Shown: piece by piece, positions 23,212 to 64,000 of the stretch | How positions within the stretch are numbered: the first letter of the stretch is position 1 | Layout of the letters: every line of letters starts with the position of its first letter | Assembly (NCBI GenBank): GCA_013350335.1 | Contig: CM023540.1 | Coordinates: 54,808,905-54,872,904 of the forward strand | DNA from: Chimonanthus salicifolius | Taxonomy: Eukaryota > Streptophyta > Magnoliopsida > Laurales > Calycanthaceae | Direction: 5' to 3' | Length of the DNA stretch: 64,000 nucleotides | The notes under the pieces: generated by a model | The model's input: the letters and a program-made list of their open reading frames with translations, nothing else | Databases searched by the model: none | Told to the model about the DNA's origin: nothing | Program-made: the position numbers and the translations under genes

Positions 23212-23268
23212 TCGTTTCACTTTGAAATGCAGGCCTTATGGGAGTGTGCAATTCCCTGGCTGTCTAAT
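23212..23268 (-). CDS. RSY3: Candidate terminal exon of the RSY3-like gene (unresolved)
   Basis: Downstream of the GTGAGT donor there are three possible acceptors: TTTCCAG at about 23269, GACAG at about 23256 and GCCAG at about 23252. Each gives a short tail, of 12-18 codons to TGA near 23214 or of 7 codons to an earlier TAA. I cannot choose between them from sequence alone. Confidence 0.35.
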
Positions 23269-23385
23269 TCAGACTGGAAACTCATATTGAATGAGTTCCA
23301 TGTGTCAGATCTTTCTTGCACAATAAATAAGAACTTAAAAGAAAATGGAACACAATAAGGGTTTAAGAGGAATGGTAGAACTCAC

Positions 23386-24222
23386 AGGTGCACACAGTAG
23401 CAGGCCCTGACGATCGACCAGAACAGGTAGGGCTCTTCTTGCAGGTACTGGGATAGGCTTCAAAGCCTGGAGAGCCCTGTAAGCTGATAACTGTACATAA
23501 TCTGAACATGCAATTTTCCTTACCGTTTTCTGGTCCGTCTTATCCATTTTTGGTTGCATTTGAGAATCATGCATTTGGCCACTTGACACCTTAGATAGAT
23601 ATAACCAATCAGCTTCAACCATGTGACGGATGAGAGCAACCATATCAGGTCCAGCTACACAAAACTTACACAGAAAACCCTGATCCAACTTGCAGTCAAA
23701 ATCAGTTGCACCTGAAGAAAGTCTATCCTCTCTAACCTTCTCAGACATGTTCCATGTGACTAAGAATCTGCTCATAAAATAACATGACTGTCCACATTTG
23801 AGTGTTTCACACAGAGAACTGGCAGTATTCACTTCATGTCTAGAAACATGCTCTGGTTTAAGCTCTCGTTTGGCAATAAAATACTTAGATTCCTCCTTTT
23901 GCAATGAAAGAATGGTTTCATAGGTTGACTTGCTAAGAATATTCAGTTCTTTTGCTTCATTTAAAATTGATTCTGTTGATGCTAATCGTGAGAAGGGCAG
24001 ATCTAAATTATCCGGTACCAGGCTAGCGGAATATGGTTCTGCTTCCTTGATGATATCCTGAATCTCATTTGGTAGGAGGCATTTATGTCCTTCACAGGAA
24101 CATTTGTGAGATAAATCTGCCCTTGAAGGTTGAGGTGAATCAGGAGAACAGCATACCAGGATTTTTGTGCCTTTAGAACCTGGAGCTGCACAGAGGTAAC
24201 AACCAGCTGCAGTAAGGGAGAT
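23386..24222 (-). CDS. RSY3: RSY3-like exon E (C-terminal region)
   Basis: 837 bp (279 codons), open throughout. It starts ISLTAAGCYLCAAPGSKGTK after acceptor CCCTGCAG, runs through SLQKEESKYFIAKREL and EADWLYLSKVSSGQ, and ends VPARRALPVLVDRQGLLLC plus AP before donor GTGAGT. The LPVL(V/W)xxxGLLL pattern matches the C-terminal TilS fold. If the donor is not used, the frame continues to a stop at 23337-23335. The lack of any stop over 279 codons, among heavily decayed repeats, shows it is under selection or only recently lost. Confidence 0.88.
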
Positions 24223-24375
24223 CTGCAGGGTATTAAAAAAGAACTGTGTAAAACAGAGTTGATAGATGATCCAGAATATTTAACTTTGTTGCACTACATA
24301 CATAACAACCAGATAATAAATTCAAAAATAAAGAAAATTGTCGCGTCAAAGTAACGGGCTAAAGCCAATGGATTT

Positions 24376-25071
24376 CATGTCATCTTGGGAGGGGTGCATG
24401 AGTGGAGAAGTAAAAAATCAAAGTCGACCGTAAAATGGGTGCCTCCTCCATGTGATGTTATGAAATTTAATGTTAATGGAGTTGCCAGAGGTAAGCCGGG
24501 GCCAGCAAGGATAGGTGGAGTACTTCAGGATAATAGGGGGGAAACTGCACTGGTTTTCACAAAAAATGTGGGAACTAGAGACTCAAATGAGGCAGAACTC
24601 CTTAGTATTAGGAGGGCATTAGCTATCTGGAAAGCCTATGGGCAAGGTCCACTTGTCATAGAAGGGGACTCAACAAATGCTATTAAATGGGCTAAGGGAC
24701 TCAAGCGACCTCCATGGAAGTTGATTATCATAGCAAGGGAGAATAAGGGTCTATCCTAAGGAATAGACGTCTCCTTCGTCCAAGTTAGTCGCACAATAAA
24801 TGAGGTCGCGGATTTCTTTGCTAAATTTGGAGTCAACAATTCAGACTCTGGGATTTTGTTTCAATGAGTTTGGCGAGTTTTGATCAGGGCCCTTGTATTG
24901 TATCTCTTTTGGGGGGGATTATTGTCTTTGCCTTATGTTGTTTTCCTTTTATGTTTTTTATTTGGTGGCTGGTCTAATTCTTTTAGACCTCTCTTCTATG
25001 ATGTTATGTTTTTGTACTTGGTTTTCTTTTTAATGAAATTTCTTTTGTTACCGCTAAAAAAAAAAAAAAAA
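24376..25071 (+). mobile_element. L1-type LINE 3' end (RNase H), antisense to host gene
   Basis: The RNase H block at 24385-24759 reads MKFNVNGVARGKPGPARIGG, SNEAELLSIRRALAIW and VIEGDSTNAIKWAK. The 3' end GTTACCGCT is followed by a run of 16 A. Related to the RNase H of the LINE at 19999-22287. The 5' boundary is approximate and I found no clear target-site duplication. Confidence 0.82.
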
Positions 25072-25850
25072 TCAGTTTATCATTAACTTTAGAAAAGAGC
25101 AATCAAGGCCTATATATGGACCATCCCATAGACCTAAAAAAAGAGAAGGCAGCAAACAGGTTAATTTGACATCTGAGCAAACCAAGAATACAGAAATTAT
25201 ATAACAAGTGAATCACCTAATTATACAGCAATGATCAACATACGACAATAAAAAATTGTATCTCACTAGCGCTTGTATGGATGAAAATTTATAGTAAGAG
25301 GAATCAACTCTATTTTTCTCATGTAGCATGACTTCGTATGTAATTTGGTTGGAATGCTATTTCTTTGGTCTTATGCGGCAAGAGGAAAGACTTTCAAGTC
25401 TGAATGATTTATAGATACCCATTTGTGGGGCCAATTTGGGGTCCCTTTCTGCCTATCTGAACCAGCAAATTACCAACTCCTTCAAACTTGTCCCAAATTT
25501 TGACTAAGACCAAAGTTACACCAAACATTGGGATAACACTTCATTTGTCATGTCAACTGGTTCCATGGTAGTCCATGCATCATGATCCTTGTGGGGTAGG
25601 AATAAGATAACAAAAATCAAATTCAATTGTACTTACTGGATTTGGCTTACGATGGATGAGAAGCATAACTTACAATTGTGAAATGTAAACAATGTGGTGA
25701 TCTGCAAGAATGCTATATTGAGAAGTAGTAGAGATGCCATGTTGAAAATAACCCACAAGAAGAGACTTGGAGAGCAGATGACGCAGTACCTTAGGGAGAT
25801 GGATGAGAAGAAAAAGCAATAGGAACAGTTTGAACAAGAAAAGGCAAAGA
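25072..25850. other. Intron sequence without recognised feature
   Basis: AT-rich, no terminal repeats or coding remnants recognised. Confidence 0.4.
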
Positions 25851-26541
25851 AATAGACTTAAAAAGATTGATGAGCCAAGGACAAGAGCAGAGTAAAGAAA
25901 TCAAAGAAACAATAGGAACAAAACTTTAAGTGTTGCGGCAGCAATATAAGGAGCAAAAGAGAGGATCGAAAACAATAGGAGGGGAGGTTTGGGTGAGGCG
26001 ACGTTAGGGAAGGGGTTTAGAATATTAATGGAGGCAAAGGATGGGGTCACGGACAAAGCTATAACGGTTTTTTTTTTTTTTTGGAGGGCGGCGATGAGAT
26101 GGAAGGCTAACAGGGATGGGGATCTGTATGGCAGGTTTTCTGGTGTTGACGGAAGGCAGGAGGGACTAAAGGTGGGTTCTCGGTAACAGGTAAAGAAAAC
26201 AAAGGAAAATGAAAATAGAGGGAAAAAGAAGAGAGAAGAAGAAGAAAAGAGAGAAAGAAAAAGATAGAAGTACCTGGAAAAGGATGATGGCTTCGCGTCC
26301 TTGGTTTCTCACCAACACATGCACAACATAGAGGTATGCTCGAAATTTCCGAATCTTAATTCATTCAATCGTGAGTTTGCCTTAAGGAGGCTACAACTTA
26401 TATAGAACTCTTCCTTTTTTAAAATAAAACATTAACTAAATAAAGTAATAAACAAAATAGAAACTAACTAAAACAAACCTAAAAGAAAAAATAAATGCAG
26501 CAACTACTAATTATGGAATCTACAATATATGCTCCACATCA
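25851..26541. repeat. Degenerate LTR of the TGATGC...GCATCA family
   Basis: The right end ATGCTCCACATCA and the preceding purine-rich AAGTACCTGGAAAAGGATG, GGCTTC and CTACAACTTATA blocks match the other members (35041, 37541, 39565, 52369). The left end is not clear. Confidence 0.45.
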
Positions 26542-27610
26542 CATTAACTTAATTCAATTTAAACAAATTGAAACTAGGTATTCAAATGAGAAACTTACTT
26601 GAAAATAACTTAGAGACTTTCTCCAAATTTACTCAACTTGAGTTTCAATTTGTTTCCAAAATTCCATGCCTTACAAGTGACCACTCTGGCCTCTATTTAT
26701 AGGCTCAATAGTGGTAGAAAACCCAAGGTAAACCATGGTTACAATGATGTGAGAATGGAGAAAAACAAGGGGTTGTGGCGTTGGAAACTTTTAAGTCTAC
26801 CCTATCCATGCCACATCACCTTCACAAATAAAAAAAAAGGGGAAAAAACATTACAACCAATCAGAAAATTCCACCTAAGCTAAATGAGATGTCCGAGTTC
26901 TTCACAAGTCTTCAATCCACACGGCCAACGAATGTTCGACTCGATTGGGAGAGTTCAAAACTCTTCAGAGAAGAATTCATGCACCAATGGGAAAGACCAA
27001 ACTAGCCAATGGGGAAAGAACATGTAGGATGATGATGTGTCTTCAACCAATGAGAGATCTCCAACTCCATGCATCTAAGAAGAGTTTTTCACACCTAAGT
27101 GGGAGAAATTTGGGTTTTTGGGCAGTCATGAGGAGTTGCACACGTTTTGGGAGAGTGAAAGTAGGAGAGAGGTCGACCATGGCTAGGGTTCAGCATCTCT
27201 TGACACTTGTTCACCAAAATAGTCATAACTCGGACTACGTAAGTCAGAATGATGCATACTTGGGCTTGTTGGAAAGATATGTGATATCGTTTGATACCTC
27301 AATTATCAAAGTTGTTGCTCGTTTTCTGCCTTAGAGATATTTAGCCAAATTGGCTAAACTTTAACTACTTTGTGCATCCTCCCTTGCCTTGTGTGAATTC
27401 CCTCCTTGCATTAGGGTTTTGGTCGTGCAACCCTCCTCCAAGTGGGGTCCATTAAGCATTTGAGTAGGCCCCAGTCCCATGTCTGGGGTCTCTGGGGTCC
27501 ACATGCATAAAACCTATAAATTTGAAGACCAAAATTGGCTACTTTACTACTCCACTTGCTACTGTAAAAAATGAAGCTTGCTTCTTTCTCATTTCCTTTT
27601 GGTCCCATAT
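26542..27610. repeat. Repeat family R2, copy a
   Basis: Matches 34890-35040 plus 36360-37330 over its whole length. Shared markers are TTACAAGTGACCACTC, AAAACCCAAGGTAAACCATG, GGCAGTCATGAGGAGTTGCA and GGGTCCACATGCATAAAACC. Probably LTR or leader sequence of an unplaced retrotransposon. ORFs inside (26945-27334 and others) have no family features. It provides the empty version of the insertion site used by the solo LTR at 35041-36359. Confidence 0.75.
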
Positions 27611-28217
27611 CATATCCTCCCTCTCGAGAGAAACTCATTCTCCAATTTAGGAGGTGTGCAACTGGATAGTGCAACCTTATCATCAGTGGCCTCCTACGTC
27701 TTCCCCACATCACACTAGGCGGTAGTCATGACCTTCCCGTGAGACTCTTGCACTCATGGTAGCTTTACCGCTTGCTAAAAGTGAGAAAATGCTAGGTGTA
27801 GTGGGTTGGATCAAGTGGCTCTTCCATACCGGATCAACGTAGGACCGAATAATGATGCTCGAGTCTACCAAAAGCCTCTCATTTGTCGCTCCCAACATGC
27901 GAACCCACACTGGCCACTCCCTGTCAAGCTTTCCTACAACATCTGTTGGTTGTTGCTTCTCTTACTGGAAATCAAGATTCTGGCATGGTTGTTCATGTAT
28001 TGACTCCAAGAGTCCAACACTCCTGGATGTCTCCCCAATCAACTCTTTGACCTCTACCTTTGGTGCAATAAGAGAATGTTGGATCATTAAGTTATCACCA
28101 GAATCCCCGTATAAGATCTCACTTTCTTCAAAGGAATTTTCTCTATTGGGTTGATTATTTGGCTCCTTGTCTGTGCATTCGGCAAGTTGGTGTTTCATTG
28201 AGGCCATTCCAGAGCAA
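27611..28217 (-). pseudogene. Unrecognised coding-like remnant next to R2a
   Basis: Minus-strand segments (28207-27962 and 27910-27710) can be joined by a frame change into a roughly 160-residue acidic, Ser-rich product including LAECTDKEPNNQPNRENSFE and VRMLGATNERLLVDSSIIIR. The style suggests the gag or pre-protease region of an LTR retrotransposon, but no diagnostic motif is present. Confidence 0.3.
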
Positions 28218-28279
28218 GATGTGTTAGCCCTAAGGTTTCAACTCAATGGTATAAGGGTAATTTTGATGATAACAAAGTC

Positions 28280-29180
28280 TTAACGTATGACACTTATGTT
28301 TTTGAAGGAGTAAAATGAGCTCATCATGGTGAGATAAATGAGCTTTCTGGCGAGTTTCTGATAAAAACTCAGTGTATCCAGAAGAGTCCCATTAGATGCA
28401 GATAACTTGGTGTTCACATCCAGCGGAATATCAGTAGGTTTGCATCCATAATAGCCAGCTCCCTTGAGGAGATCCAGGGCATACTTCTGCTTCGAGAGAG
28501 AGTACATGAGAAGACCGAGCAACTTCTATGCCAAGAAAGTACCATGAGGGCCCCAAATCCTTAATATCAAAAGTCCATTGAAGATAATGTTTGAAGGACA
28601 AGATGCTCGCATCATTGTTACCTGTGAGTACAATATCATCAACATAAACTACCAAAATCACCACAACTAAGTGGAGGTGGTTGATAAAGGCTGAGTGATC
28701 CACCTGGCAACGAGTAAAACAATAAGGTAACAAAGCACTGCTAAACTTCTCAACCAAGCATGGGGAGACTGCTTAAAGACCATAGAGAGCCTTCTAGAGT
28801 CTGCAGACAGAGTTGGGCTCCCCCTCCTTGACAAAGAGGAGGAAGCACATACACTTCTTCCTGAAAATCACTATGGATAAAAGCATTCTTCACATCTAGC
28901 TGGTGAATAGCCAAGCAAAAGTCGTGGCAAGGGAGAAAAGATCCGCATAGATATAATCTTGGCAATAGAGATGGTGTCCAGGTAGTCCACACCATGTCTA
29001 CATGAAGCCTTTGGCAACGAGGCGAGCCTTATACCTAGCAATGGAGCCATCAAGATTATGCTTCATGGCAAATACCCACTTGCACCAAGTCTTCCCTAGT
29101 GGCAAGGGAACCTGGTACCAAGTGTTGTTCTTCTCAAGGGCAGATAATTCTTCATCCATGGCTGCTTTTCACGAGGGATG
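28280..29180 (-). pseudogene. copia reverse transcriptase remnant
   Basis: From high to low coordinate: KAAMDEELSALEKNNTWYQV, WCKWVFAMKHNLDG, DVKNAFIHSDFQEEVYVLPP, VVYVDDIVLTGNN (catalytic YVDD near 28640), WYFLGIEVARS and CKPTDIPLDVNTKL. This is the full order of a copia RT, spread over several frames. Confidence 0.85.
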
Positions 29181-29589
29181 TTTCAAGGTCGTGCCAATCC
29201 TCTTTGGTATCTTAATGTTATCCAATGCTGTGAGAAAGTTGTGATAGAAAGAGGAAACAAACATGATATGATACAAATTGATCAAGTGGATGACTAGTGC
29301 AAGAATACTTACCTTTGCGAAGAGCAATAGGGAGATCAGACTAGTCAGAGACGGGTGGATCTGGACCACTCGCAGATGAGTGGGTGGAGTTAGTCGCAGA
29401 TGATAGATGGGACTATCGGCGTTGATACACCAGAAGAGGCTTGATCAGACTGGTGGGGCTAAGATCTGTAGGAAGAAGAGGATGCACTGGGGAAGGAGAA
29501 AAGGTAGAGGGAGATGGAAAATAAGGATCGTGCTCAAAACGGTGATATCCATAGAAATATAGGTTTTCCCAGTGAAGGGATCAAGGCAT

Positions 29590-29965
29590 TTATAGCCTTT
29601 GTGAAAAGGTGAGTAACTGAGAAACACGCAAGCACATCCCTAGGAGTGAGCCAGAGAAATTGTAAACAAAGCAGACACACCTAAAGACATGTAGGGGGAT
29701 AAAATGGATGGGTTTATGTAAGGAGAGACGGTCAATGGGGGATTGGCTTTGCAAAATGCGAGATGGCATTCTTTTGATAAGATAACAAACAGTTAACACT
29801 GCTTCGGGCCAATAGAACTGTGGGACATGCATGGTGAAAAGAAGAGAATGAGTCACCTCAAGAAGGTGACGATTCTTTCGTTCAGCTACACCATTTTGTT
29901 GAGGTATAGAGGGACATGAGAATTGAGAGTCTATACCATGTTTCAAGGTAGGCCGTGGTGACAGA
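29590..29965 (-). pseudogene. copia integrase, C-terminal half
   Basis: KHGIDSQFSCPSIPQQNGVA, ERKNRHLLEV and YWPEAVLTVCYLIKRMPSRI are the conserved copia integrase core and following region. Separated from its N-terminal half by the LINE at 29966-30945. Confidence 0.85.
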
Positions 29966-30945
29966 ATTAAGTTTTGGACTGATTCTTAGTGCGATAGTTC
30001 TTCGTTGGCTTCCTGATTTCCTACTCTTTACCGTCTCTCTTAGCCCCCGAGAGACTATATCATGCTTCTATTCTATTATAGGTGAACAAGTTGTGGGACA
30101 TTCCTCTTCGCTGTAACCTGTTAGACTCAGATACCGATGCCTTTGCGAACCTCCTCCATACAATATCATCCTACAAAATTTGCACCAATATAGAGGATAG
30201 TCTTGTTTGGTGGCCTAACAAAACTGAAGTCTTCTCAGTAAAGTCCTTCTCTTGTAGGTTGTCAATTGTCAGTACTCCGACTGTCAACCCCAAAATTTGG
30301 ACTTCCAAAGCTTCCCCGAAGGCAATTAGTTTTGTTTGGACTATTGGACTGGGGAAAATCTTGACTCAAGATAACTTGCGGAGATGAGGAAGAAAAATGG
30401 TTAGTGCATGTCTGTTTTGTCTACAAGCATCAAAAGAGTCGAATCATCTACTCATTCATTGTTCCTTCACTTCCGTGATGTGGAACTCTATTTTAGATCA
30501 GTTTGGTATGGCTTGGGTTATGCCTTCGTCGGTGGTTGAATTGTCATTTGAGTGGGACATCATATCCGTCTCTCTTAAATGTTCCTCATTGTGGCAGTTA
30601 TCGTTCTTTGCAACTATCTGGAGCCTATGATGGGAACGTAATAACATGATTTTCAAAGGTATTATCAAGTCCAGTGTGTCAGTTGCAAGTCGTAGTCTCA
30701 CCAAGTGTGCATCGTGGGTTGCCTCACTCCAGGAATTCCAGAATATCTCCATGTCAGATATCTTGCGTGCTTGAAAAGAATGTGCTGATCTTGCTTGAGC
30801 TCAGAAGGGCTTTTTGTGGGCGCTTCAGATATCTATTTTTGGCTTGTAGCTTTTTGGTCTTCTATTTTTTTTTGTATTTGCACCTTTGGTGCTTTTTATT
30901 TATTAATATATGAACCATTTCAATATATATATATATATATATATA
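29966..30945 (+). mobile_element. L1-type LINE 3' fragment nested in copia integrase
   Basis: Plus orientation, opposite to the copia host. It carries a zf-RVT block: KIWTSKASPKAISFVWTIGL (30290-30350) and CLFCLQASKESNHLLIHCSF (30409-30470). It ends with TTATTAATATATGAACC and a (AT)n tail at 30922-30945. Copia integrase resumes directly on each side (REY before, KHGI after). No clear target-site duplication. Confidence 0.78.
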
Positions 30946-31316
30946 TTCCCGACCGTTATCACTTCGTAAAACTTGAATTTTACACCCAAATTGAGTGTCG
31001 ACCCACTGGTAAATTTTTTGGAAGTGATAAAAAACCTCGGTTTTATGTTTCTTCAAATATGTCCAAGTCAATCGAGAATAATCATCAATAAATGTGATAA
31101 AATAATGAAAATCATTACGAGATACAGTGGGAGATTTTCAACCATCAGAGTGAATAAAGTAGATGATTTTTTATTAATAGACAGGGGAAAATGAGATCTA
31201 ACATGCTTGCCATATTGGCAATGTTGATACTTAAAATAACTAAAAGATAAACTAGGAACAAACTGTTTTAAAACAGAATCTGCAACATGTCCCAAACAAC
31301 AATGCCATAGCCACAC
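30946..31316 (-). pseudogene. copia GAG-pre-integrase and integrase N-terminal half
   Basis: MWLWHCCLGHVADSVLKQFV with the CQYGK motif (zinc-binding HHCC region), then FYHFQKIYQWVDTQFGCKIQ and VLRSDNGREY at the integrase core, cut off by the LINE. Confidence 0.82.
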
Positions 31317-31639
31317 ATCTCAAGAAGAAGAGATCGAACATGCTTTTGAGTTGCCATGGCGAGAGCCAAGAAGGTAAAGACCACCCGCTTCACGACCAAC
31401 ACCCAACACCTGCTTCGTGGTCAGATCCTAGAAAACACAAGGAGAATGAAAGAAAGTGACTGAGCAATTCATATGTTTAGTTAAGGCACTAACAAATAAT
31501 AAATTGGGAGATAATAAATTTGGAACATGCAAAACAACGGAAAGGTCCAAATTACGGGTAACGAGAACAATCTATTTCCCAACAATATCAGTATACGAGT
31601 CATTGGTTAATTTAACCTTCCCACATGAAACAGGTGAAA

Positions 31640-32741
31640 AGGAGGAGAAATGGTGGACATACCAGCCATATGATCAGTAGCACCAAAATCGACTATCTAG
31701 GAATGATGGGAGAAACGGTGTGCAGAGGACTCATTACCTGAAGTGGAGGAGACAACATTGGAAACCTTGGAGGATTGAAGGAGCTCCAATCGTTGTAGTA
31801 TTAAGGTAATGTCCTGGCCAGTCATAGGGACATTTTCACTTGCTTGGGTCGCCCATGAAGCTTGTAGCATGAATCAACTTAGTGGTTGATCATTTTGCAA
31901 TAAATGCAGAACCACGTACCCCTCTTCTGTGAGCCTTTAGTGCCCTTTCGAGTATTAGAAGATGGATCAATGCCATGGGAAACAGGAGGCCCATGAGTTG
32001 GAGAAGGTGCGGAAGCATGAGTGGTGATCAAGGCAGAGCGTTCAACTGGCAGAGGAGTCATAACAAGGCAACTCCTATCATCCTGAAGTAATGTAGAGTA
32101 GACCTCATCCAAAGAGGGAAGAGGTCGTTGCCCAAGCAATTGGGCCCGTATATGCTCAAATTCCTCATTCAGTCTAACCAATAACTCAAATGTCCGTCCC
32201 CGAGCAACCAAATGCCTAGAGATAACAATAACACTAGGGCACTCAAACGTGGCAGATTCGAGTTGATCCAACTCTAACCAACAGGTCCGTAGTTTGGAAT
32301 AATACTGAATCAATGATAACTCCCTTGTCGGAGATGAGGTGCGGTCTAATATAACTCGTATAAGCGGGCGGAATTGTCACCATCAGAATAGAGAACTTTA
32401 ACTGTGTCCCAAACATCCTTGGCAGTCGGAAGAGTATAAACAGTGCTACGAACATGATCTTCCATGGAGTGAAGAAGCCAGGACTTGACCAAGGAGTTAT
32501 TAGCATTCCAGGGTCGGTATGGGGGATTACCCTTGGCTGGTTCGGTGGTAGTGCCATTAATATAGTTGGACAGTTGCTTGACTCCAAGAAACATTGTGGC
32601 GGAGTGAGACTATTGGAAATAATTGGTCTCATTCAACAACACTGTGGTGATCTTGCCAATATGAGTGGACCCATAAGAGGTCATATCAGGAATCAAACTG
32701 ATAAAAGAATATACTATAGAAGATCCACTAGAAGAGGCCAT
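31640..32741 (-). pseudogene. copia gag and protease start
   Basis: The start is at the minus-strand ATG near 32741 (MASSSGSS). UBN2-type gag follows: YINGTTTEPAKGNPPYRPWN, NSLVKSWLLHSMEDHVRSTV, YYSKLRTCWLELDQLES. A CCHC knuckle CIYCKMINH, stop, VDSC lies near 31900-31870. The protease active site near 31680 reads DFGATDHMAG where copia elements have DSGAT. Confidence 0.82.
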
Positions 32742-32760
32742 GGTGCTGCAGTTATAACCT

Positions 32761-33770
32761 AAGAAACACCGATACGGGTGTCTCTATCGGATACGACACG
32801 TATCCAATACAAAATTACGACAAATTTTTAAAAACTAGGATATGAGCGCGGCAGAATATGCCAAATTAAAAAAATTATTATTTTATCTATATATATATAT
32901 ATATACATGCAAATCAGTTGAAGAAATACCTTTAATTATTGCTCAATTTCAGCTGAAGAAAAGTTAAAAACAATTCATTGCGGGCATGAGATAAGAACAT
33001 TTAAAATTATTATTTATGAAAATTATTGATGAAAAGTTTAAAATATTTTAAGTAACAATTCATTTTGAGACCCAACTGTTTTATTATTGTGGCACTATAT
33101 TTTTAAAAATTTTTTAATTAAAAATGTATAATTTTATTCAGTCATGTTATCTTAATAGTAAAGATGACTTCTAATATTACCATTTTTCAGCCTAATTTTG
33201 TCTATATAATGGGATATTTTAACATTTCAGCTATTTTGTTGTTCTATTTTGAAAAAAAAAAAAAGACATAAAATAAAATAATAACATAAACATAAATTTA
33301 TTAAAATTAATTATTTTCATTTTTCACTAATCTACATTAATAAAAATATAAATTATCAGTATATACATACTTATGTTTCTAACTTCATTTTATAACAATA
33401 TAATTATCAAATAGTAATTAAATCAGAGTTACTCAGTGTGTGTTGATAGAGTGATTTGCACATTCTTGGAAGATTAGCTATTTAACTAATGCTCTAAGAG
33501 ACTTGGACAACTAAGTTATAAAGAAATTAAATAATTAAAAATATTTGAATAATATAATCCTATTTTGTAATTTAAATTAGTGGGCTTAGGAAGTCATGCA
33601 TTATGCATATAATAAAAAATAAATTTGATATAATTATATATTTTTATATAATAAATAAATTTATTTAGAAAAAAAATTAAAACTTCCATATTTAGAAAAA
33701 CTATTTATCAAAATTTTAAAAAAGGGCTGGTTCCACGCAGATCTACAGAAAAAAAAAAAATCTGGGAATA
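32761..33770. other. AT-rich stretch in copia leader
   Basis: Very AT-rich kilobase between gag and the primer-site side of the copia element. At 32789-32805 GGATACGACACGTATCC forms a 7-bp perfect inverted repeat. May be a separate insertion; no ends identified. Confidence 0.35.
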
Positions 33771-34246
33771 CATGTGTCACAAGCAGCAATGGTGAGAATG
33801 CAGAAACGTGGGTCCCATGGTTGGTCGAAGGTGTCACAACCAAGTGCGATTAAAAGAAGGGGCACGAGAGACTATAGTAGTGAAGGGTCGAAAGCGATCA
33901 GTGCCTTGAATCAACCGATCAAAGCATACAATCGAAAAATGGGTTTTCTTAACCGGAAAAATAGTTGGAAGAGGGAAGAGGTAGAAACCTGATAAAACTC
34001 CTCCAAAACAGAGATCCAACCCTATGGATGAAAGCTTTGTCAAAAATGATAGGGGTGGGTAGGGTCCCGCCGACAGGATCTTTGTCGGAAAAAAAGATCG
34101 ACAACAAAGAAGAAATAGCTGCAGGAGACATTCATAGGAACAAAAAACAAAAAAACAGATCCGTGAAAAGGTGTGGAAATAGCAAGTCTAAAGGGACGAT
34201 CCGCTACAAAGATAAAACAGAGTCAAATAAATCTTCAGAAATCTTT
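33771..34246 (-). other. copia leader region
   Basis: Between the AT-rich block and the primer site. No coding remnant recognised. Confidence 0.35.
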
Positions 34247-34508
34247 CTGGCTCTGATACCATTTAGAAAAATAGATTGAAGAGAAGAGAAGAATGAGAAT
34301 GGAGAAGAAATTCTCTATATTCAATGTAATGATTGTAAGAGCTATACATGTATAAATAATGAACAAGGAGCAACCATGGTGGCTAATATGGAAAGGAATA
34401 AAAGAAATATCAATTACAAGAAATCATCCAACTAATGAAATAAACTAAGTTGACTTTCCCAAATAAGATGATTCTAGTCAACTTTGTCTTGGAGTGGGTC
34501 CCACAACA
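34247..34508 (-). repeat. copia 5' LTR with primer-binding site
   Basis: The minus strand reads CTATTTTTCTAAATGGTATC then AGAGCCAGAAAG at the LTR/primer junction. Further up, TTATTTATACATGTATAGC provides a TATA-like region. The probable LTR start is TGTTGTGGGACCCACTCC near 34508. Confidence 0.55.
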
Positions 34509-34889
34509 CCTTACGTGTCCTGCAGTAAGTCCCACAACATTCGCCGCTCTCCCAAAAAGTGAGGATGCTTGCTAAAAAAAACACCATCTCCAAATACACA
34601 ACAATAGACGGCACAATGAAAGCTTGGCGTATGTCGAACAAAGGTGTATTCAAGAAACAAGTTCTGATCACCAACTGTTGAAAGCTGAGATAGTGGAAGA
34701 ACCTTTCTTAGTCTTCTAGGAAATAATGGACCAAATAAACTTCTGTTAGAAGTGGTTTCAAACCAAAGACGTCACTAATGGCAATCTTTGGTGATACTAG
34801 TTTCCAATGAAAACTAATTTCCAGTTTAAAGTGAATTAAATTAAAAGAAAATTGCAATTCCAAAAACAACAATCAAATGTAACTTAAGT
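34509..34889. other. Unclassified intron sequence
   Basis: Between the copia LTR and R2 copy b; nothing recognised. Confidence 0.35.
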
Positions 34890-37330: not shown

Positions 37331-37540
37331 GCTTACATCATTAGACTTGGAGGAGTTGGCGTGGAGAAAAAAAAAATAGAACTTTATGGCTTAAGGAAGG
37401 GGATAAGAATACTATGTTTTCCATTGCATTGCAAATCTTACGAGAAAATGTAACAATATCAAATCTACAATAGTGGATGGAAGGATGTTGAGAGAGAAGA
37501 GATTTGGGCGTGGTGAACAAGTATTCTTTCAAGTATCTTT
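37331..37540. other. Intron sequence left of the non-autonomous element
   Basis: Continues on the far side of the element at 40288, so this is the pre-insertion host sequence. Confidence 0.5.
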
Positions 37541-38287: not shown

Positions 38288-38307
38288 ATCTCCCGTCTGA
38301 GAAGAAC

Positions 38308-39186: not shown

Positions 39187-39564
39187 ACCTTTACGGATTT
39201 CGGCTACTTAGGCAAGGGGTTGAATAGCCCAAGGTGGGATTGGTTCTCCTAACATAACTCTTAGAGGATTCTAAATGTTGTGTCCTAGATTCTACATGCC
39301 ATGATGAAAAAATTGATTTTTTTTTTTTAAATGCAATATTTTTTTAATTATTTTATTTTTTTATTTTTTTAAAAAATTACGATGCAACCTAAGACTGTGG
39401 GTGTTTAAGAAAACAACCTAACCATGCTAGATGCTATGATGACAATAATAAACAAAAAATAATATTTTTTTAATTAATTAATTACTTTTTTTAAATATAC
39501 TTAATGTAAAGCCAAGACCGTGGATGTTTAAGAAAACACCCTGAGCTAAGCTCTGATACCAATT

Positions 39565-40282: not shown

Positions 40283-40287
40283 TCTTT

Positions 40288-40811: not shown

Positions 40812-40892
40812 CTTGCATGGAATGTTGCGAGTGTAGTTCAACAGCAACCTTGACGTTCTACCCCTGATTGGCCGATGCCTTTGAGAGATGAA
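40812..40892 (-). CDS. RSY3: RSY3-like exon D
   Basis: Exactly 81 bp (27 codons), phase 0 at both ends. It reads FISQRHRPIRGRTSRLLLNY then TRNIPCK. Acceptor GATAG, donor GTCCAT. The QRHRPIRG motif is a conserved stretch of plant TilS. Its last residues (PCK) join ISLTAAGCYL of exon E, the expected continuity. Confidence 0.87.
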
Positions 40893-49672: not shown

Positions 49673-49673
49673 T

Positions 49674-53600: not shown

Positions 53601-54550
53601 ATGGCCTCCTCTAATACTTCAAACATGCTTGGCAACACATCTTCTAATTCCACCTATATTGGAAAGATCACCGTTACCCGTTTAAATGAGACCAATTACT
53701 TTCAATGGTCCCATTCGGCCAAAATGCTCCTTGATGCAAAGCAAAAGACTAGTTATATAGATGGTAATGCCACGGAACCCTCGAAGAATGATCCAAAATA
53801 CAAGGAATAGAAAGTCAATAATTCATTGGTTCAAACATGTCTCTTACACTGTATGGAGAAGCATGTTCGAGAATTGGTGTATACACTACCCACTACAAAG
53901 GATGTATGAGATACAATCCAAGCTTTATATTCTGATGATGATAACTTTACTTGAATTGACAAGCTCTAGTAGGATGTTGCCCATCTTCGATAGGGGGAGT
54001 AATCTCTCATTCAATATTACTCAAAACTTAAGAGTTGTTGGCTAGAACTTGACTAGCTTGAGAATCTTCAATTTGAGAAACATATAGATACTTTGTTGCA
54101 CAAGAAATATATTGAAAAAAGGCACACATTTGACTTACCGGAAAGCCTTAATCCAGACATTGAGCCTATTCGTGCACAAATTCCGAGTAAGTAGCCTCTT
54201 CCACCCCTGATTAAGGTATATTCTACATTACTATGTGATGAGAGGTGTCATTTGGTTATGTCCCTGCCATTGTGCCTGTTGATTGGTCGACTCTGGTCTC
54301 TAAGGGACCTTCTTCTCTTAAAGGGAAGGACCTTATGCTTGACGAACAACGGGATACCAGAGGACCAAAGAAGAAGGGTGCTCAGTTTTGTACATACTCC
54401 AATCACTATATTGATTCTTGCTATAAGCTTCATAGTCAACCCCCCTCTAAGCAGACTCATGTTGAAACCTCTTCTTCTGCTGCTGAAGATGACATCATTC
54501 GAGTATCTAACGTAAGCATGCATCATTGCAGTAAGACAGGTTGCAATTGA
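53601..54550 (+). pseudogene. copia gag remnant
   Basis: IGKITVTRLNETNYFQWSHS, then AKMLLDAKQKTSYIDGNATE, LHCMEKHVRELVYTLPT, YYSKLKSCWLELD and FCTYSNHYIDSCYKLHS. The last is a nucleocapsid knuckle whose second cysteine is replaced by serine. Related to the gags at 31640-32741 and 55810-56400. Confidence 0.8.
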
Positions 54551-54559
54551 AGACTCTTC

Positions 54560-55795
54560 AATCCTCTACGGTCTCCCATGTTGCTACAGATCAATCAGGT
54601 ACTACACCACTGGCCCTCCATGGCTCATCTGATAGTTCATGGATTATCAATTCTGGAGCTACTAATCATATGGCTGGTATGTCTCATCTTTTTTCCACAC
54701 CTTCCTCTATTTCACTTGGCAAAGTGGCATGAGCTAATGGTTTTTTCACATATATTGTTGGTAAAGGGACTATTCACTTGTCTTCTAATCTCTTGTTAGT
54801 GGCCTTACTAAGTCATTGAATTGTTCAGGAACTTTTTATCCTGCCCACTATCTTTTCCAGGACTTGGCCTCGAAGCACATGATTTGTGGTGGTCGTGAAA
54901 CCAACGGCTTATATTTCTTCGATTCTCAGACTGACAACCACTCTAAAACTTGTTTAAGCTTGTTTTCTCAGAAATGTGGCTTTGGCACTGTCGTTTAGAA
55001 CACCCATCAAATGAAGTCTTGAAGCAACTGGTTCCTTCTTTGTCTTTTAAATAAATTTGAGTGTGAAAGTTGTCAATATAGAAAACATCATAGACCTTTT
55101 CCCATTTCACTAAATAAAAGTACTTCTACATTTTGTTCCCTTATTCACTCTGATGTATGGATGTGTGGATGATTACTCTCATTTGCTCGGGTATACATGA
55201 TGAAACAGATGTTTGAGATTTTTAATTACTTTTGCACATTTTATCGAGTCAAAACCAATTTGACTGCCATATCAAAATTTTGCGAAATAATAATGAAGGG
55301 GAGTATTTGTCACATTCATTCTTATAGTTTTTGCAAGACCACAGCATTCAATTTCAAGCCTCTTGTCCTCACACTCCTCAACAAAATGGTATTGCCAAAA
55401 GGAAGAATTGCCACGTTCATAAGTAGCCCATTCCTTGCTATTTACCATGCATATACCTAAGTAATATTAGCAAGGAGTTGTTTTAACTTCATGCTATCTA
55501 ATTAATCGCATGCCCTCACGTGTAATGCATAACAAAGCTCATATTGATCGTGTCTATCACAAACATGTTTCCATCACTCCTTTACATGTCTTGGGATGTG
55601 TTTGCTTTGTCCATATGTTTTCTAGTGATAAACTCTCCAAGCATTCTGTCAAATGTCTATTTTTGGGATATTGTCCTTTGGTATCTCATTGGGCGTCAAT
55701 CACCACGTCATTCCCTGCAAGAGAGGACTGCCCCTTAGAGACAAGTGTCGACCGATCAGCAGGCACAAAGGCAAAAGACATAATTAGGTGACGCC
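54560..55795 (+). pseudogene. copia protease, GAG-pre-integrase and integrase remnant
   Basis: The protease site SWIINSGATNHMAG (N where the catalytic D is expected) is near 54640-54690. The pre-integrase block LWHCRLEHPSNEVLKQLVPS can be read near 54973-55045 with a frame change. Integrase-like VYMMKQMFEIFNYF and SRVMHNKAHIDRVYHKHVSI with the HVLGCVCFVHMF segment follow. Both catalytic sequence and frame are damaged. Confidence 0.7.
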
Positions 55796-55809
55796 TCTTA
55801 TCATGACAC

Positions 55810-56400
55810 AATTTAGAATACGCGCTTGCTCAAAATTTGGACACGAATAGCCTCAAAGTCAGAATTAAAACCAGTCAACAAGTCAAAGGTGTGTCATTTG
55901 TCAATATATTGCTTATGCAATAAAGTATCCGGGGGATAGTCAAATTTAATAATCTTCAGCTGATCAAGTTTCAACCAATAACTTTGCATTTTTTAATAAT
56001 ATTGAAATAGGGATAACTCCCCCTATCGAAGATAAGCAACATCTTGACGTAATTCATAAATGCGAGTTGAGTTGTCATCATCAGAATATAAGGCTTGGAC
56101 TGTATCCCATACATCCTTTGCAGTAAGTAATGTATACATCAACCCACTAACATGCTCCTCCATAAAATGAAAGAGCCAGGTTTGGACCAAGGAATTATTA
56201 CCTTTCCATTACTTGTATTTTGGATCATCCTTTGCAGAATCCGTGGTAGTACCACCAACATAATCAGTCTTTTGTTTAGCATGAAGGAACATTTTGGCCG
56301 ATTGAGACAATTGAAAGTAATTGGTCTCATTTAGAAGGGCAGTAGTGATATTCCCAATATAGGTTGAATTAGAAGAAGTCCAGCGGAGAACATCATGCAA
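55810..56400 (-). pseudogene. copia gag remnant, minus strand
   Basis: The minus strand reads SSNSTYIGNITTALLNETNY, FQLSQSAKMFLHAKQKTDYV, then YYQKMQSYWLKLDQL-like and downstream gag segments to about 55810. Homologous to 53640-54230 but inverted. Its leader and 5' LTR are separated from it by the element at 56566-62104. Confidence 0.75.
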
Positions 56401-56565: not shown

Positions 56566-58104
56566 TATTAGGGCCTCGGTTTGACCGAGTCTATGTATTG
56601 TCAATTCCGTGACCAAGTGTGACCGTCTGTGTTGAACCTTGCCTTGGAAGAATATGAAGATGTCAGAAGATCTACTATGCATAGAAGAGTCTACAACGAA
56701 CATGTGATTGACACACAGGCAAGTGGACTGTAGTGGACCTTAGGTTAAGCCTAAACATCCTAGAAATCAATGGTTAGTAAATTGGAAATCTGAAAAATAT
56801 TTAGTCTCAACCTCGAGGCCTCAAGCATTTTGTCGAGGCCTCAAAGACTGTCCATAACTGAGTGAAATTATGACAGCTAGACTTCAGCGTGTGATCTGAG
56901 GGCCATCTATCCTTTGACCAATTATCTTACAAAATATGGTAAGGAAAATCTGAAAAAGGGGGAAAGGCTTCTCATGATTTCAAAACATCTTATGCCTTCA
57001 TCGTAATTGGCAATCATGGTTATAATTGGAAATCTTGAGAAGGCTCCTCAATCTAATAAGGGATAAAAGTCTTTTTATGATTTGCAATCACATGCAAATC
57101 TGGAAATTCAAGAAGTCTAGATTGACAATCTTACAAATCTGGAAATTTTCAAGAGACTCCTCTTGATTTAAAAAAATATTGTAGAAATCTTTTTGCCATC
57201 ACATGATTAGTTAATTGAATAATCTGATTGACAATCATGAACATGTGGCAAATGAATGAGCTGGTTTCTTCCAAAATATCAGTAAGATCAAAGTTTGAAA
57301 TTTAAAATTTAAGTGTATTGTATTTCCACATACAGGCTCGAGGCCTCGAAGTCCTGGAGGCGTCGAGACTGAACTGTTAGGCAGAAACTCTATAAATACC
57401 TGCTTAAGCCCTGGTTTAAAATGTAGCTGATAAATTGGAAAAATATAGGCATTCTCCAGAGACTTATCCTTCCCTAATCTCCTCACTTTCATCATCCTTT
57501 AATGGAAGAGTTTAAGCATTCAATGCTTGTTTAGTTGTGAAGATGAGGACATTCTTCTAAGACCCAAAAATAGTAAAACCCTTGTCCTAGAATCCATATT
57601 CCGCTGTGCCAATACTCAACAAAGATGGACTTTATTTGAAGGAAGAAGGCGCAGAGACATCTACAAGAAGAACACAAATTTTGGAGAATTATTAAGGCCC
57701 AAGGCAAGTGTTCTTTGTTTACTTTGTTTATCATTGTACGGTGGATTAGATCAGTATAATTGAACCACCTTAAAAAATAGGTGTCAAGGATTAAAGCAGG
57801 ACGGTCGAACCTTTCAAAACTAGGTTGTAATGTTTGGGTGTGACTCCCATACAAGTGGATTTGGGATAGCCCTACAGAGGGTGAATCTAACAGTGGATGT
57901 AGGTTCAGGTGCACCGAACCACTATATATCATTGTGCATCTGTGGTTTACTTTAATGATTTGATTCATTTGTTTATCATTTGCACACACATTTATTCGGC
58001 TGCACATGTTGTTAAATTGATTTATTTTAAAAAGGAGAATAAAATCGGATCAAACCTATTCACCCCCACTCTAGGTCTTGCATACTTCTAGTAACGGAAT
58101 TTCA
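56566..58104 (+). repeat. 5' LTR, 1539 bp
   Basis: Starts TATTAGGG (expected TGTTAGGG) and ends GGAATTTCA. Highly similar to the 3' LTR by eye, with scattered substitutions and a few indels, including about 17 extra bases near 57350. Confidence 0.9.
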
Positions 58105-58171
58105 ATTGACATCAAGAGCTCGGTTACTCTGAGTTTGACTTAATCGTCCGAGTTGATCCTGTACTAGAATC

Positions 58172-60004
58172 ATGCATAGAGGTGATAGTCACCCTGTTTC
58201 CAAACCTCCCTACTTTGACGGCTCTAACTATGCCTCTTGGAAGGCAAAAATGAAAAGCTTCTTTATATCACTTGATGGAGCCGTCTGGGAATCAGTAGCA
58301 AGAGGTTGGGAACATCCTGTTAAAGAAATCTCTGAAAAATCCGCCAAAGATGATGCAAGAAAATCTGTTCAATAAATCATTGGTACTAAATCTAAGGATT
58401 ACATCACCTGGACCGACATGGAAAAGACTTTATATACTGCAAATGGAAAGGCTTTAAATGCCATTAACTGTGTTGTCTCACCAGATGAGTTCAAACGTAT
58501 AATGACATGTGTGACAGCCAAAGATGCTTGGGACATCTTAAAAAGGACACATGAGGGAACCTCAGTTGTTAAGAGGTCTAAACTCCAAATCCTCCAGTCA
58601 CAATTTGATAACATACACACAGAGGAAAATGAAGTGTTTATGGAGTTTTATTCGAAACTAAGTGACATTATAAATTCCATGTGGACCTTGGGTGAAATAA
58701 TCCCTGAATCTAAAATTTGTACCAAAATACTAAGAAATTTGTCCAAAAGTTTTAAGCCCAAGGTTGCCGCCATTGAAGAATACAGAGATGTGTCTCTAAC
58801 GAGGGTTGATGACTTGGTAGGATCCCTTCAAACCTATGAGCTTCACTTTGATGATGAAAAACCTAAGAAAAAATCAATTGCCCTAAAAACTAAATTTAAA
58901 AGGGATGAAGAATCTGATGACTCACAAAGTGATATAGATGAAGAGGTTGTCACTCTTCTTAAAAATTTCTTAAAACATTTTAATGTGAAGAAAGAGAGAA
59001 GACGACTTAATAACGAAGACTATAGAGAATTCAATAAAAGTAAAACACATATTTTAAAAGAAGAGTCAAAAGGTAGATTCAAAGAAAAATCCAAGCCTAA
59101 AGAAACTCAATGTTTTAATTGTGATGGATATGGGCACTTTGCTAATAAATGTCCTTCTAAGAAGACATCTAAAAAGAAAGCTATGACCACTGTGGTGGAA
59201 GAAGACACATCACAATCCGAAAGTGAATCCGATGTGTCAACCCATGAAGATGTTGTCAAGACGAAAGGTTTCATTGCTTCCATCTCTTGTGATCCTAAAA
59301 ATACTCCAAATGTTGAAAGTGATAGTGAAGGATTAGACTGTGAGGATGATGGCTTACAAGAAGCTTATGATGCTTTGTTCTTAAAAAGCAAAGATTTAGC
59401 TAAAAGACTTAGTAAATTTAAAAATGAAAATGTAAAATTGAAAAATCAATTAAAAACTGAAAAAGAAACATTTGAAAAAAACTTAAAAATTGTTCAAGAT
59501 GAAAATCTAAGTCTTCAAGAAAAGCTCAATTTAGCTCAAGATGAAATTTTAAAACTAAAGAAAGATGAGTCAAAATTTAGAAGTGAAAAGCAAAAATTGG
59601 AATTTGACTTAAACCATTTAAGGAGTCACAAAATAAAATTTGAAGATAAATTTACTCAAGGGGAAGAAAAATTTGAAAAACTCTTAAATATTAGAAAATA
59701 ATTTGGAGATAAAACTGGTCTAGGTTTTGATAAGTAATCTAACTCCAAAACTGTTTTTGTGAAAGGTGAGCATTCCTCCTCCAAATCTTCAAGTGTGACA
59801 TGTTATTATTGTGGGAAAAAGGATCACATGAGGTTTGAATGCAACTTGAGAAAAAAGCACCTTAAAGATAAAATCTCTCAAACAAAGGTAAATCTTCGGG
59901 CCAATAATAAAAGTATTGTGTATGGAGGAAACCAACATGATCCCTTGGTCCAAAAGCTAAAAGAATTGGTGAATGAGCTCACCATGAAATGTGACAAAAG
60001 ATGA
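58172..60004 (+). pseudogene. gag of the SIRE-type element, 610 codons, three in-frame stops
   Basis: A single frame runs from ATG 58172 to 60004. It is broken only by TAA at 58373-58375, 59699-59701 and 59735-59737; the longest open part is 58418-59701 (427 aa). In order: FDGSNYASWKAKMKSFF; UBN2 core KDAWDILKRTHEGTSVVKRS; knuckle CFNCDGYGHFANKC (near 59111-59152); an acidic Ser-rich region; a long coiled coil (59380-59690); a second knuckle CYYCGKKDHMRFEC (near 59801-59842). Without the stops this would be a full SIRE-type gag. Very little frameshift damage compared with other elements here. Confidence 0.85.
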
Positions 60005-60560
60005 GCAAGTTTCAAAGATCTTAGGGGTGACAACAGGCCTTTAACCTTCAATGAAAAATGGGTTCAAAAGGTGAGAGGGTTGGTTTAAGCCTCTTGATGT
60101 GCCCAGTTCCTCCTTGTGCCTAATAGGAAATTGGGTTTTTGAGGATCTGACAAATTGGTTGGGTGGTGGATCTTTCTTAGTTTCAATATTGGAATTTTTT
60201 TTTTTTAAAAAAAAACATCTTATGTTTTGTTGAATCTTAATCTCCATGATATTTTTTTTTGTATCCTTCGTCAATTTATGACAAAAAGGGGTAGAAAAAT
60301 GGTACTAATGTTGAGGAGGAGAAATTTCAAAATCCTACCTGGTTCCCTGTCTTTTGCAGGAATTTTTTTTTTAAGCATCATTTCAGGAGGAGAAAAAGAA
60401 AAAGGGGGACAGAAGTGTTAGTACAAGAAATTCAAGTCTTGATATGGTCATTGTTTGAGTTGTATTTTTTTTCAAAGGCTTTTATTTCATTGTAAAGGGG
60501 CTAAATGAGATGTATTTGTTAGAGTCTAGGTTTTGTCACGAAATTGACAAAGGGGGAGAT
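60005..60560 (+). other. Untranslated interior after gag
   Basis: T-rich and A-rich spacer between gag and the polypurine tract where pol would normally lie. No protease, RT or integrase motif seen on either strand. Confidence 0.6.
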
Positions 60561-62104
60561 TGTTAGGGACCCGGTTTGACCGAGTCTATGTATTGTCAAT
60601 TCCGTGACCACGTGACCGTGTTTGTTGGACCTTGCCTTGGAAGAATCTAAAGATGTCAGAAGATCTACTATGCATAGAAGAGTCTACACCGAACATGTGA
60701 TTGACACACAGGTAAGTAGACTATAGTGGACCTTAGGTCAAGTCTAAGCATCCTAGAAATCAATGGTTAATAAATTGGAAATCTGAAAAATGTTTAGTCT
60801 CAGCCTTGAGGCCTCAAGCATTTTGTCCAAGCCTCAAAGACTGTCCATAACTAAGTGAAAATTATGACAATTGGACGTGTGATCTCAGGGTCATCTGTCC
60901 TTTGACCAATTATCTTACAAAATATGGTAAGGAAAATCTGAAAAAGGGGGAAAGGCTCCTCATGATTTCTAAACATCTTATGCCTTCATCGTAATTGGCA
61001 ATTATGGTTATAATTGGAAATCTTGAGAAGGCTCCTCAATCTAATAAGGGATAAAAGTCTTTCTATGATTTGCAATCACATGCAAATCTGGAAATTCCAG
61101 AAGTCTAGATTGACAATCTTACAAATCTGGAAATTTTCAAGAGACTCCTCTTGATTTAAAAAAATATTGTAGAAATCTTTTTGCCATCACATGATTAGTT
61201 AATTGAATAATCTGATTAACAATCATGGACATGTGGCAAATGAGTGAGCTGGTTTCTTCCAAAATATCAGTAAGATCAAAGTTTGAAATTTAAAATTTAA
61301 GTGTATTGTATTTCCACATACAGGCTCGAGGCCTCGAGACTGAACCGTTGGGCAGAAACTTTATAAATACCTGCTTAAGCCCTGGTTTAAAATAAAGCTG
61401 ATAAATTGGAAAAATGTAGGCATTCTCTAGAGACTTATCCTTCTCTAATCTCCTCACCTTTATCATCCTTTAATGGAAGAGTAAGCATTCAATGCTTATT
61501 TAGTTGTGAAGATGAGGACATTCTTCTAGGACCCAAAAACAGTAAAACCCTTGTCTTAGAATCCATATTCCGTTGTGCCAATACTCAACAAAGATGGACC
61601 TGATTTAAAGGAAGAAGGCGCAGAGACATCTACAAGAAGAATACACATTTTGGATAATTGTTAAGGCCCAAGGCAAGTGTTCTTTGTTTACTTTGTTTAT
61701 CATTGTACGGTAGATTAGATAAGTGTGATTGAACCACCTTAAAAAATAGGTGTCAAGGATTAGACCAGGGCGATCGAACCTTTCAAAACTAGGTTGTAAT
61801 GTTTGGGTGTGACTCTCATATATAGTGGATTTGGGATAGCCCTAGAGAGGGTGAGTCCAACAGTGGATGCAGTTTCAAGTGAACTGAACCACTATATATC
61901 GTTGTGCATGTGTGGTTTGCTTTAATGGTTTGATTCATTTGTTTATCACTTGCACACACGCTTATTCCGCTGTACATATTGTTAAATTGATTTATTTTAA
62001 AAAGGAAAATAAAATCGGATCAGACCTATTCACCCCCCCCCCCCCCCCCTCCTCTCTCTTCCCCCCTTTCTCTCGGTCCTGCATACTTCTAGTAACGAAA
62101 TTTC
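60561..62104 (+). repeat. 3' LTR, 1544 bp
   Basis: Starts TGTTAGGGACCC and ends CGAAATTTCA. Near its end (62033-62050) it has a long C run and a CT-rich stretch where the 5' LTR (58066-58073) has only CACCCCCACT. Confidence 0.9.
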
Positions 62105-62888: not shown

Positions 62889-62935
<47 letters not shown>

Positions 62936-62962
62936 CATATATATATACATATATATATATAC

Positions 62963-63037
<75 letters not shown>

Positions 63038-63041
63038 GAGA
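62889..63041. repeat. (AT)n/(GA)n compound microsatellite
   Basis: About 105 bp of AT/AC-type dinucleotides followed by about 45 bp of GA. Several ORFs of 62-166 aa cross it and translate as Ile-Tyr or Ser-Leu repeats; they are artefacts. Confidence 0.95.
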
Positions 63042-63423
63042 ATAGCCAATCAAGGCAAGCCAAAAAAGGAAAGGAAGATCAAATGCACATGTAAAATGTG
63101 AAATTACTAACATTTACAACAGGGCTTTGGGCTCAGGCCTCAACATTTATATGTTCAAGCCCAGTCTGAATTTTATTTGGGCATTATTTTTTTAGCCAAG
63201 TCATAGCCCGATCAATATCCAGGCTAAAAAATGAGAGCCAAGCACTTTTTACTTCAGGCCAGGCTCTTCGGGCTATTGGGCTTTCGCGCTAAATTGTCAT
63301 CCCTATTCATAGAGGATAGATATGTTGAGGGGGAAGGAGTGTTAATGGGAGAGCACTTGGGACAAACAAAGCATACATGCATATATAGAGACATACACAA
63401 AAATCATCGGCAAGGATACTTAC
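63042..63423 (-). other. Proximal part of the 22-kb intron with GGGCT-rich repeat
   Basis: After donor GTAAGT this stretch contains, at about 63121-63305, a sequence rich in GGGCTTTGGGCTCAGGCC and GGGCTATTGGGCTTT, ending TTGTCATCCCTA. Such GGGCT-rich units with a TAGGGATGACAA end are common interspersed repeats in plants, but I cannot assign a family. Confidence 0.4.
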
Positions 63424-63533
63424 AGCCATGATGGTAACAGCTTGATGTATCAAACTGCGGCATTTATGGTCAATAAATGAACGTGTTTTCCGGCACAAAG
63501 AGATAATGGCTTGCAATTCAGATTTAAAACTAC
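63424..63533 (-). CDS. RSY3: RSY3-like exon B
   Basis: 110 bp. After the two bases completing Cys it reads SFKSELQAIISLCRKTRSFI then DHKCRSLIHQAVTIMA, with donor GTAAGT directly after. The phase-2 start fits exon A and the phase-0 end fits exon C. No stop. The reading frame also stays open upstream of the acceptor, but the canonical TTTTCAG acceptor and the phase match favour the start at 63533. Confidence 0.85.
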
Positions 63534-63893
63534 CTGAAAAGGTAGAGCCAAGGCAATTTTGTAAAGACACAAAAGCCGGAATAAGCAGTCTGGCTGGCTG
63601 GCAAACTGCCACTAGCAAACATCTACCGAGTTCTCATCAGATGTAAAGCATTTTCATGTAAAAACATGAAACTGAAATTGCAAAGAATGAGAGTACAAAT
63701 AAAGATTCCATTACATGCTAAAGAAAATAGTACCACAAAAAATTGAACGAAGTTGTGAAGCATAAAGAAATGCCATAACACCACTAAAAATAAAATAATG
63801 CAATAAATAAATGTTGCATCACATTGCAATATGCAGCCACAGAAATATTTTCATGCTGGGATGAACTCCGAATTGTCTAGTATTGAAACTCAC
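63534..63893 (-). other. RSY3-like intron, 360 bp
   Basis: Starts GTGAGTTTC and ends with a pyrimidine-rich TGGCTCTACCTTTTCAG. No transposon recognised in it. Confidence 0.8.
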
Positions 63894-64000
63894 ATGACGA
63901 TAAATTTCCTAATGACATGCGAATCCGGTTTCGAGCATAAACTGGGTTTCTATTTGTTGGATCTTCTACCCACTCTTGACAGCTAGCTTGACATATCTGC
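63894..64000 (-). CDS. RSY3: RSY3-like exon A (continues to or beyond window edge)
   Basis: Reads ICQASCQEWVEDPTNRNPVY then ARNRIRMSLGNLSS, ending in the first base of a split codon before donor GTGAGT. W(I/V)EDPTN followed by RNxIR is the conserved TilS signature behind the catalytic domain. The bases GCAG at the extreme window edge could be an acceptor, which would put the exon start at 63996, but the exon may equally continue. The T left over joins GT of exon B to make Cys. Confidence 0.85.

Follow-up and report, generated by a model that had tools for sequence, protein, structure and literature searches.

Does a 64,000-nucleotide window of Chimonanthus salicifolius contig CM023540.1 (C9:54808905-54872904, the whole stretch analysed here) carry a working gene for a plant tRNA(Ile)-lysidine synthetase, RSY3 (RASPBERRY3)/TilS, when its exons are separated by tens of kilobases of retrotransposon-type DNA? 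The first-pass annotation had proposed such a gene from five minus-strand exons. Our analysis supports a nuclear RSY3/TilS gene that would be transcribed, spliced and organelle-acting, with introns swollen by retrotransposons, at a probability of about 0.93. The earlier reading was thus sustained in its main point, but it had misplaced the end of the gene and made the gene too small.

Sixty kb around and past the window end were added to find the upstream exons, and positions in these extended coordinates are converted to C9 positions by adding 54,808,904. The resulting gene model comprises 11 exons on the minus strand, with a coding sequence (CDS) of 2,013 nt including the stop, encoding 670 amino acids in one open frame (Table 1). 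The distance from the ATG at 101809, which lies outside the window, to the stop at 11743 is 90,067 bp, and the ten introns, all with GT-AG borders, total 88,054 bp rather than the approximately 39 kb first thought to be crossed. Exons 7, 8 and 9 and the upstream edge of exon 10 at 24222 had been placed correctly to the base, with GT-AG borders and matching phases, and the sizes given for the introns (22,270, 171 and 16,589 bp) and for exons 8 and 9 (90 and 81 bp) were exact. Exon 6 was correctly identified; however, it begins at 63996, and the upstream intron takes in bases 63997-64000. The region beyond 64000, to which the search for further coding sequence had been directed, holds five additional exons. 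Coding sequence does not continue to 23212, as had been claimed, since exon 10 stops at a donor site at 23386 and the last exon lies behind another intron. A terminal exon near 23212 was rejected after all frames were read and showed no match to relatives. The true terminal exon was placed at 11746-11835 by tblastn with P0001, the best relative, described below. The two agree at 28 of 30 residues, and the exon is preceded by an AG acceptor and followed by TGA.

The identity of the gene is supported by several lines of evidence. The joined exons of the first-pass annotation form 408 codons without a stop, in line with its statement that no exon has one, and a search with the joined-exon protein returned 377 relatives at E ≤ 0.001 (120 listed; best 7.8e-267), so the open frame is not due to chance. 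Among the matches listed, the named relatives are plant proteins, several of them described as tRNA(Ile)-lysidine synthetase, tRNA lysidine(34) synthetase TilS or RASPBERRY 3 (the last including P0070 of Hibiscus trionum); many are uncharacterized, and one is misnamed as a helix-turn-helix regulator. The plant organellar TilS of Magnolia sinica (LOC131223077) shows full-length homology, with 63% identity over the 408-residue query. The PP-loop family PF01171 is matched at 5e-49 (166.9 bits, cut-off 27), and the TilS N-terminal equivalog domain TIGR02432 at 155.1 bits (cut-off 93.6). The PP-loop motif is SGGxDS, and SGGGDS is present at residues 60-65. A sequence search of the PDB yielded three different sequences that bear the names TilS, MesJ or UPF0072; the PP-loop domain and conserved blocks of bacterial TilS (3a2k, 1ni5 and 1wy5/2e21/2e89) align with the present protein.

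In 141 columns, conservation among the other sequences reaches 95% or more, and the gene keeps 139 of these; departures at such columns among 91 well-filled relatives have a median of 1, a mean of 1.9 and a maximum of 12. In a 26-row tree, it falls in the clade with plant TilS/RSY3, among magnoliid proteins. The gene and P0001 are grouped with support of 100/100, P0004 is next (89/83), and Magnolia, Tasmannia and Aristolochia stand at an open fork. The stem of the gene and P0001 is somewhat long (0.35), compared with end branches of 0.22 for Magnolia, 0.20 for Tasmannia and 0.23 for P0004, and a stem of 0.40 for Aristolochia.

Evidence on splicing comes from P0001, the best match in the protein search, a 625-residue translation. 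The underlying contig measures 2,286 bp and comes from a close relative; its source is labelled 'lgn', which we take to be the Logan assemblies of public reads. All 625 residues align with the present gene, with nine substitutions and no gaps; P0001 starts inside exon 1 and reaches the end of the protein. All nine differences lie at variable columns. A C/Y difference in exon 11 first seemed of concern but was dismissed, the column being variable (H in 85, Y in 21 and others in 8 of 114). Because 1,875 nt of coding sequence fit into 2,286 bp only without introns, the contig crosses all ten junctions, and the close relative thus very probably splices this gene. Independently of P0001, Magnolia sinica isoform X3 (P0002) differs from isoform X2 (P0003) by the in-frame loss of exactly the exon 5 block, and the two diverge exactly at the exon 10/11 border. 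The Magnolia isoforms thereby imply the same borders as in the present gene, a sign from sequence comparison that these borders are old. The predicted isoform X3, with its skipped exon 5 and other C-terminus, also means that alternative RSY3 products may occur in magnoliids.

An alternative is that polyadenylation within the introns or exon skipping would yield mainly short products and little full-length enzyme. The composition of isoform X3 is in line with this, and in rice the loss of OsIBM2 leads to truncated, polyadenylated variants of genes with heterochromatic introns (PMC7145194, in extract); nothing in the window shows such products, however, and P0001 has the full length from its start within exon 1 onwards. 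We consider this outcome unlikely.

P0001 could also derive from an intronless retrocopy in the genome of the relative, in which case it would be uninformative on how the long gene is spliced. A search of the own assembly (852,596,351 bases in 591 contigs) with P0001 brought up ten candidates, and all ten, when scored, were matches; they lie on one strand of C9 within this locus, one for each of exons 2-11; the stops in three of them lie in alignment overruns past the exon edges into intron. No uninterrupted PF01171 domain was found among the five candidates scored in this genome, which speaks against an intronless copy. In both searches the best candidates were scored, so that a badly decayed copy could escape, and a copy in the relative alone could remain. 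P0001 is itself open over its 625 residues, with two departures at conserved columns (138 scored), and we regard the retrocopy as very improbable.

The same search bears on the intact copy elsewhere that had been named as a rival to this locus, as all ten matches are exons of the present gene. A recently dying copy, with exons still open and full-length expression blocked by long introns while another copy does the work, would fit the five introns above 10 kb and the sense-strand element domains that could bring their own termination signals, but it is hardly credible given that no second copy was found among the candidates scored in the own genome, that every exon is open with 139/141 conserved columns kept, and that the joined product is present in a close relative. 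With exon 10 as the query for annotated fragments of the gene, 37 proteins were returned, the best at 56% identity, and none was a fragment from the studied plant.

Several observations weigh against a working, spliced RSY3/TilS gene. The support for splicing comes from the contig of a close relative. The exon 4 donor is unusual (GTTTTG), and the first 45 residues are predicted by homology to Magnolia and Tasmannia and lie outside the stretch covered by P0001. The ratio of observed to expected CpG is 0.45-0.54 in the introns longer than 4 kb and 0.46 in the exons; there is no contrast and therefore no sign of special intron silencing. Unlike bacterial TilS, the protein has a long plant C-terminal half, encoded by exons 10 and 11, without a Pfam match, and it scores 69.6 bits against a cut-off of 606 for NF007942, the full-length bacterial equivalog (PRK10660). 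As a bacterial model, NF007942 was not taken as defining for the plant branch. The AlphaFold model of P0001 with 27 relatives is poor (mean predicted local distance difference test score 56.2). The six best Foldseek matches obtained with it are TilS entries, followed by the other PP-loop enzymes LarE and NcsA, and the fold search would thus lend weak support to TilS.

If the gene works as the favoured reading holds, the entire 90 kb would be transcribed and the introns spliced out, and the protein would be imported into plastids and/or mitochondria, with its N-terminal extension presumably serving as the organelle-targeting sequence. The enzyme would then use ATP and lysine on C34 of tRNA-Ile(CAU), so that AUA is read, with the lysidine step leading mainly to ava2C in plants. 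Plants have RSY3 as their TilS homologue, and knocking it out is lethal to the embryo in Arabidopsis; its localisation is predicted to be the plastid and mitochondrion, and land-plant organellar tRNA-Ile2 carries ava2C, with a little lysidine in Arabidopsis mitochondria (PMC11938285, in extract). In the organelles of plants, ava2C rather than lysidine is thus probably the main end product, and the name 'lysidine synthase' is to be used with care; the extracted text leaves open the plant route to ava2C. TilS is of low abundance in plant mitochondrial proteomes, according to an extract of PMC13308715.

The introns would have grown through retrotransposon insertions over a long time, tolerated as silenced DNA that the polymerase can cross. 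This is biologically ordinary for such genomes: at 90,067 bp with a CDS of 2,013 nt and long terminal repeat (LTR) retrotransposons in its introns, the gene belongs with those expanded by transposable elements to more than 20 kb around a normal coding sequence, and is one more case of a known kind. Long genes and introns are prevalent in Chloranthales and magnoliids, with LTR elements the main contributor; 876 of 2,184 orthologues in Chloranthus spicatus exceed 20 kb, and expression declines only once intron length passes 40 kb (PMC8626473, in extract). In C. sessilifolius, 8,187 genes exceed 20 kb (PMC8626421, in extract), and in Cycas the mean intron is ~30.8 kb and the mean gene ~121.3 kb (PMC9023351, in extract). 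Like the long genes of these groups, the present gene is above 20 kb, its coding exons are unchanged and LTR elements are among the main constituents of its introns; its 90 kb is below the Cycas mean, with no difference in kind. In the limited library searched, no relevant literature linking RASPBERRY3 or plant TilS with long introns was found.

Genes with heterochromatic introns are transcribed by conserved IBM2/EDM2-type machinery (PMC7145194, in extract). It is conceivable, but in our view improbable, that the output of this 98%-intron gene, found as a single copy, depends on such machinery to carry the polymerase through intronic heterochromatin; if so, plastid and mitochondrial AUA decoding would be coupled to how far retrotransposons in the nucleus are silenced. 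The locus is a clean case of an organelle-translation gene that stayed intact while mobile DNA stretched it to ~45 times the length of its coding sequence. Possible pitfalls for gene finders are illustrated as well: introns of 10-22 kb flank exons of 76-110 bp, and 11.5 kb separate the final coding exon from its neighbour. The practical yield is a set of exact junctions for RNA work and a corrected annotation; knowledge of plant genes is unchanged.

Table 1. Exons, introns and intronic elements of the RSY3/TilS locus, in window positions or, beyond 64000, in extended coordinates.
Feature	Position	Strand	Remarks
Exon 1	101809-101644	-	Outside window; starts at ATG
Exon 2	101536-101342	-	Outside window; own-genome match
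Exon 3	99059-98975	-	Outside window; own-genome match
Exon 4	79744-79669	-	Outside window; own-genome match
Exon 5	69099-68923	-	Outside window; own-genome match
Exon 6 (earlier exon A)	63894-63996	-	103 bp; contains ICQASCQEWVEDPTNRNPVYARNRIR; GT-AG edges, phase, own-genome match
Exon 7 (earlier exon B)	63424-63533	-	110 bp; edges, phase, own-genome match
Exon 8 (earlier exon C)	41064-41153	-	90 bp; own-genome match; 30/30 residues as in P0001
Exon 9 (earlier exon D)	40812-40892	-	81 bp; own-genome match
Exon 10 (earlier exon E)	23386-24222	-	837 bp; donor GTGAGT at 23386; own-genome match
Exon 11 (true terminal exon)	11743-11835	-	93 bp; ends FKPRVPLGGGCSSFI-stop (TGA 11743-11745); own-genome match
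Introns 1-6		-	107, 2,282, 19,230, 10,569, 4,926 and 360 bp, in that order
Intron 7	41154-63423	-	22,270 bp; Copia-type remains, repeat pairs
Intron 8	40893-41063	-	171 bp
Intron 9	24223-40811	-	16,589 bp; Copia-type and LINE-type (long interspersed nuclear element) remains
Intron 10	11836-23385	-	11,550 bp
Copia-type repeat-bounded element, intron 7	56568-62037	+ (antisense to gene)	~1.5-kb LTR-type repeats, 92.2% identical; open gag stretch 58376-59698
Two interleaved LTR-type repeat pairs, intron 7	42505-50805		42509-42815/49717-50021 and 46180-46853/50088-50805
Copia gag stretch within the interleaved pairs	49051-49530	-
Old Copia-type element, intron 9	26674-37320	-	~0.95-kb LTR-type repeats, 80.6% identical; RVT_2 stretch 28434-28772 (-)
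Short element-like repeat pair, intron 9	37539-40266		37539-38281/39563-40266
Short Ty3-type LTR element, intron 10	16262-18241	-	446/450-bp LTRs, TG..CA ends, 5-bp target-site duplication CTAGA; gag-like stretch 16848-17258

The first-pass description of the introns as built of nested retrotransposons was borne out in part: LTR-type pairs with Copia or Ty3 gag or reverse-transcriptase domains, two interleaved pairs in intron 7 and LINE-type pieces are present. In intron 7, 13,771 of the 22,270 bp fall within spans bounded by repeat pairs, and for intron 9 the figure is 13,375 of the 16,589 bp; the interior of such spans is not necessarily all transposon. Of 64 wholly intronic open stretches of at least 110 amino acids, 20 were scanned. 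A transposon-type domain (E ≤ 0.01) was present in nine, six of them above the Pfam cut-off, and comprised Copia gag or reverse transcriptase, RNase H-type RVT_3 and LINE-type endonuclease; ten of the 20 had no domain, and one other had a coiled-coil match only. Both orientations relative to the gene occur among these domains.

Two of the seven LTR-type pairs (16262-18241 and 70689-72732) have TG..CA ends and a 5-bp target-site duplication. No such duplication was found for the element at 56568-62037, and a third one, proposed at 37541-40282, was dropped as its end lies 16 bases past the repeat. At a rate of 1.3e-8, which is our assumption, the seven pairs would be 2.3-6.2 million years old. 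Their Kimura two-parameter distances are 0.060-0.162, and with the rate of 1.51e-9 quoted in the extract of PMC8626473 the ages would be ~20-54 million years; these dates are rough. A repeat piece of the element at 26674-37320 gave 44 genome matches (40 of 190 candidates scored) and the repeat of the element at 16262-18241 gave 25; the matches of the two pieces are spread over contigs C1-C11, with one on the small contig C115. This distribution hints at eleven chromosomes and, taken with the tree, may fit a Calycanthaceae-like member of the Laurales.

Some further features of the locus were recorded. A 299-residue open stretch without a Pfam match lies at 38311-39207 (-), flanked by the two copies of the short element-like repeat pair in intron 9. 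Intron 7 holds a tandem array at 44985-45344 with a 20/40-bp unit (~14 copies of 20 bp at 45025-45309), two further copies in register near 45450-45589, and an inverted repeat at 53637-56379 with arms of ~730 bp (53637-54365 and 55673-56379) that are 74% identical. An Rfam scan of the window at the gathering threshold and a tRNA scan of the window each gave no matches. Downstream of the gene, in window positions 1-9141, the direct repeats 1-313/8224-8536 (89.5% identical) and 306-542/8913-9141 (87.8%) look like LTR-element ends. Upstream, two direct copies of ~4.2 kb (105955-110136 and 119670-123762, extended coordinates) are 80% identical and 13.7 kb apart.

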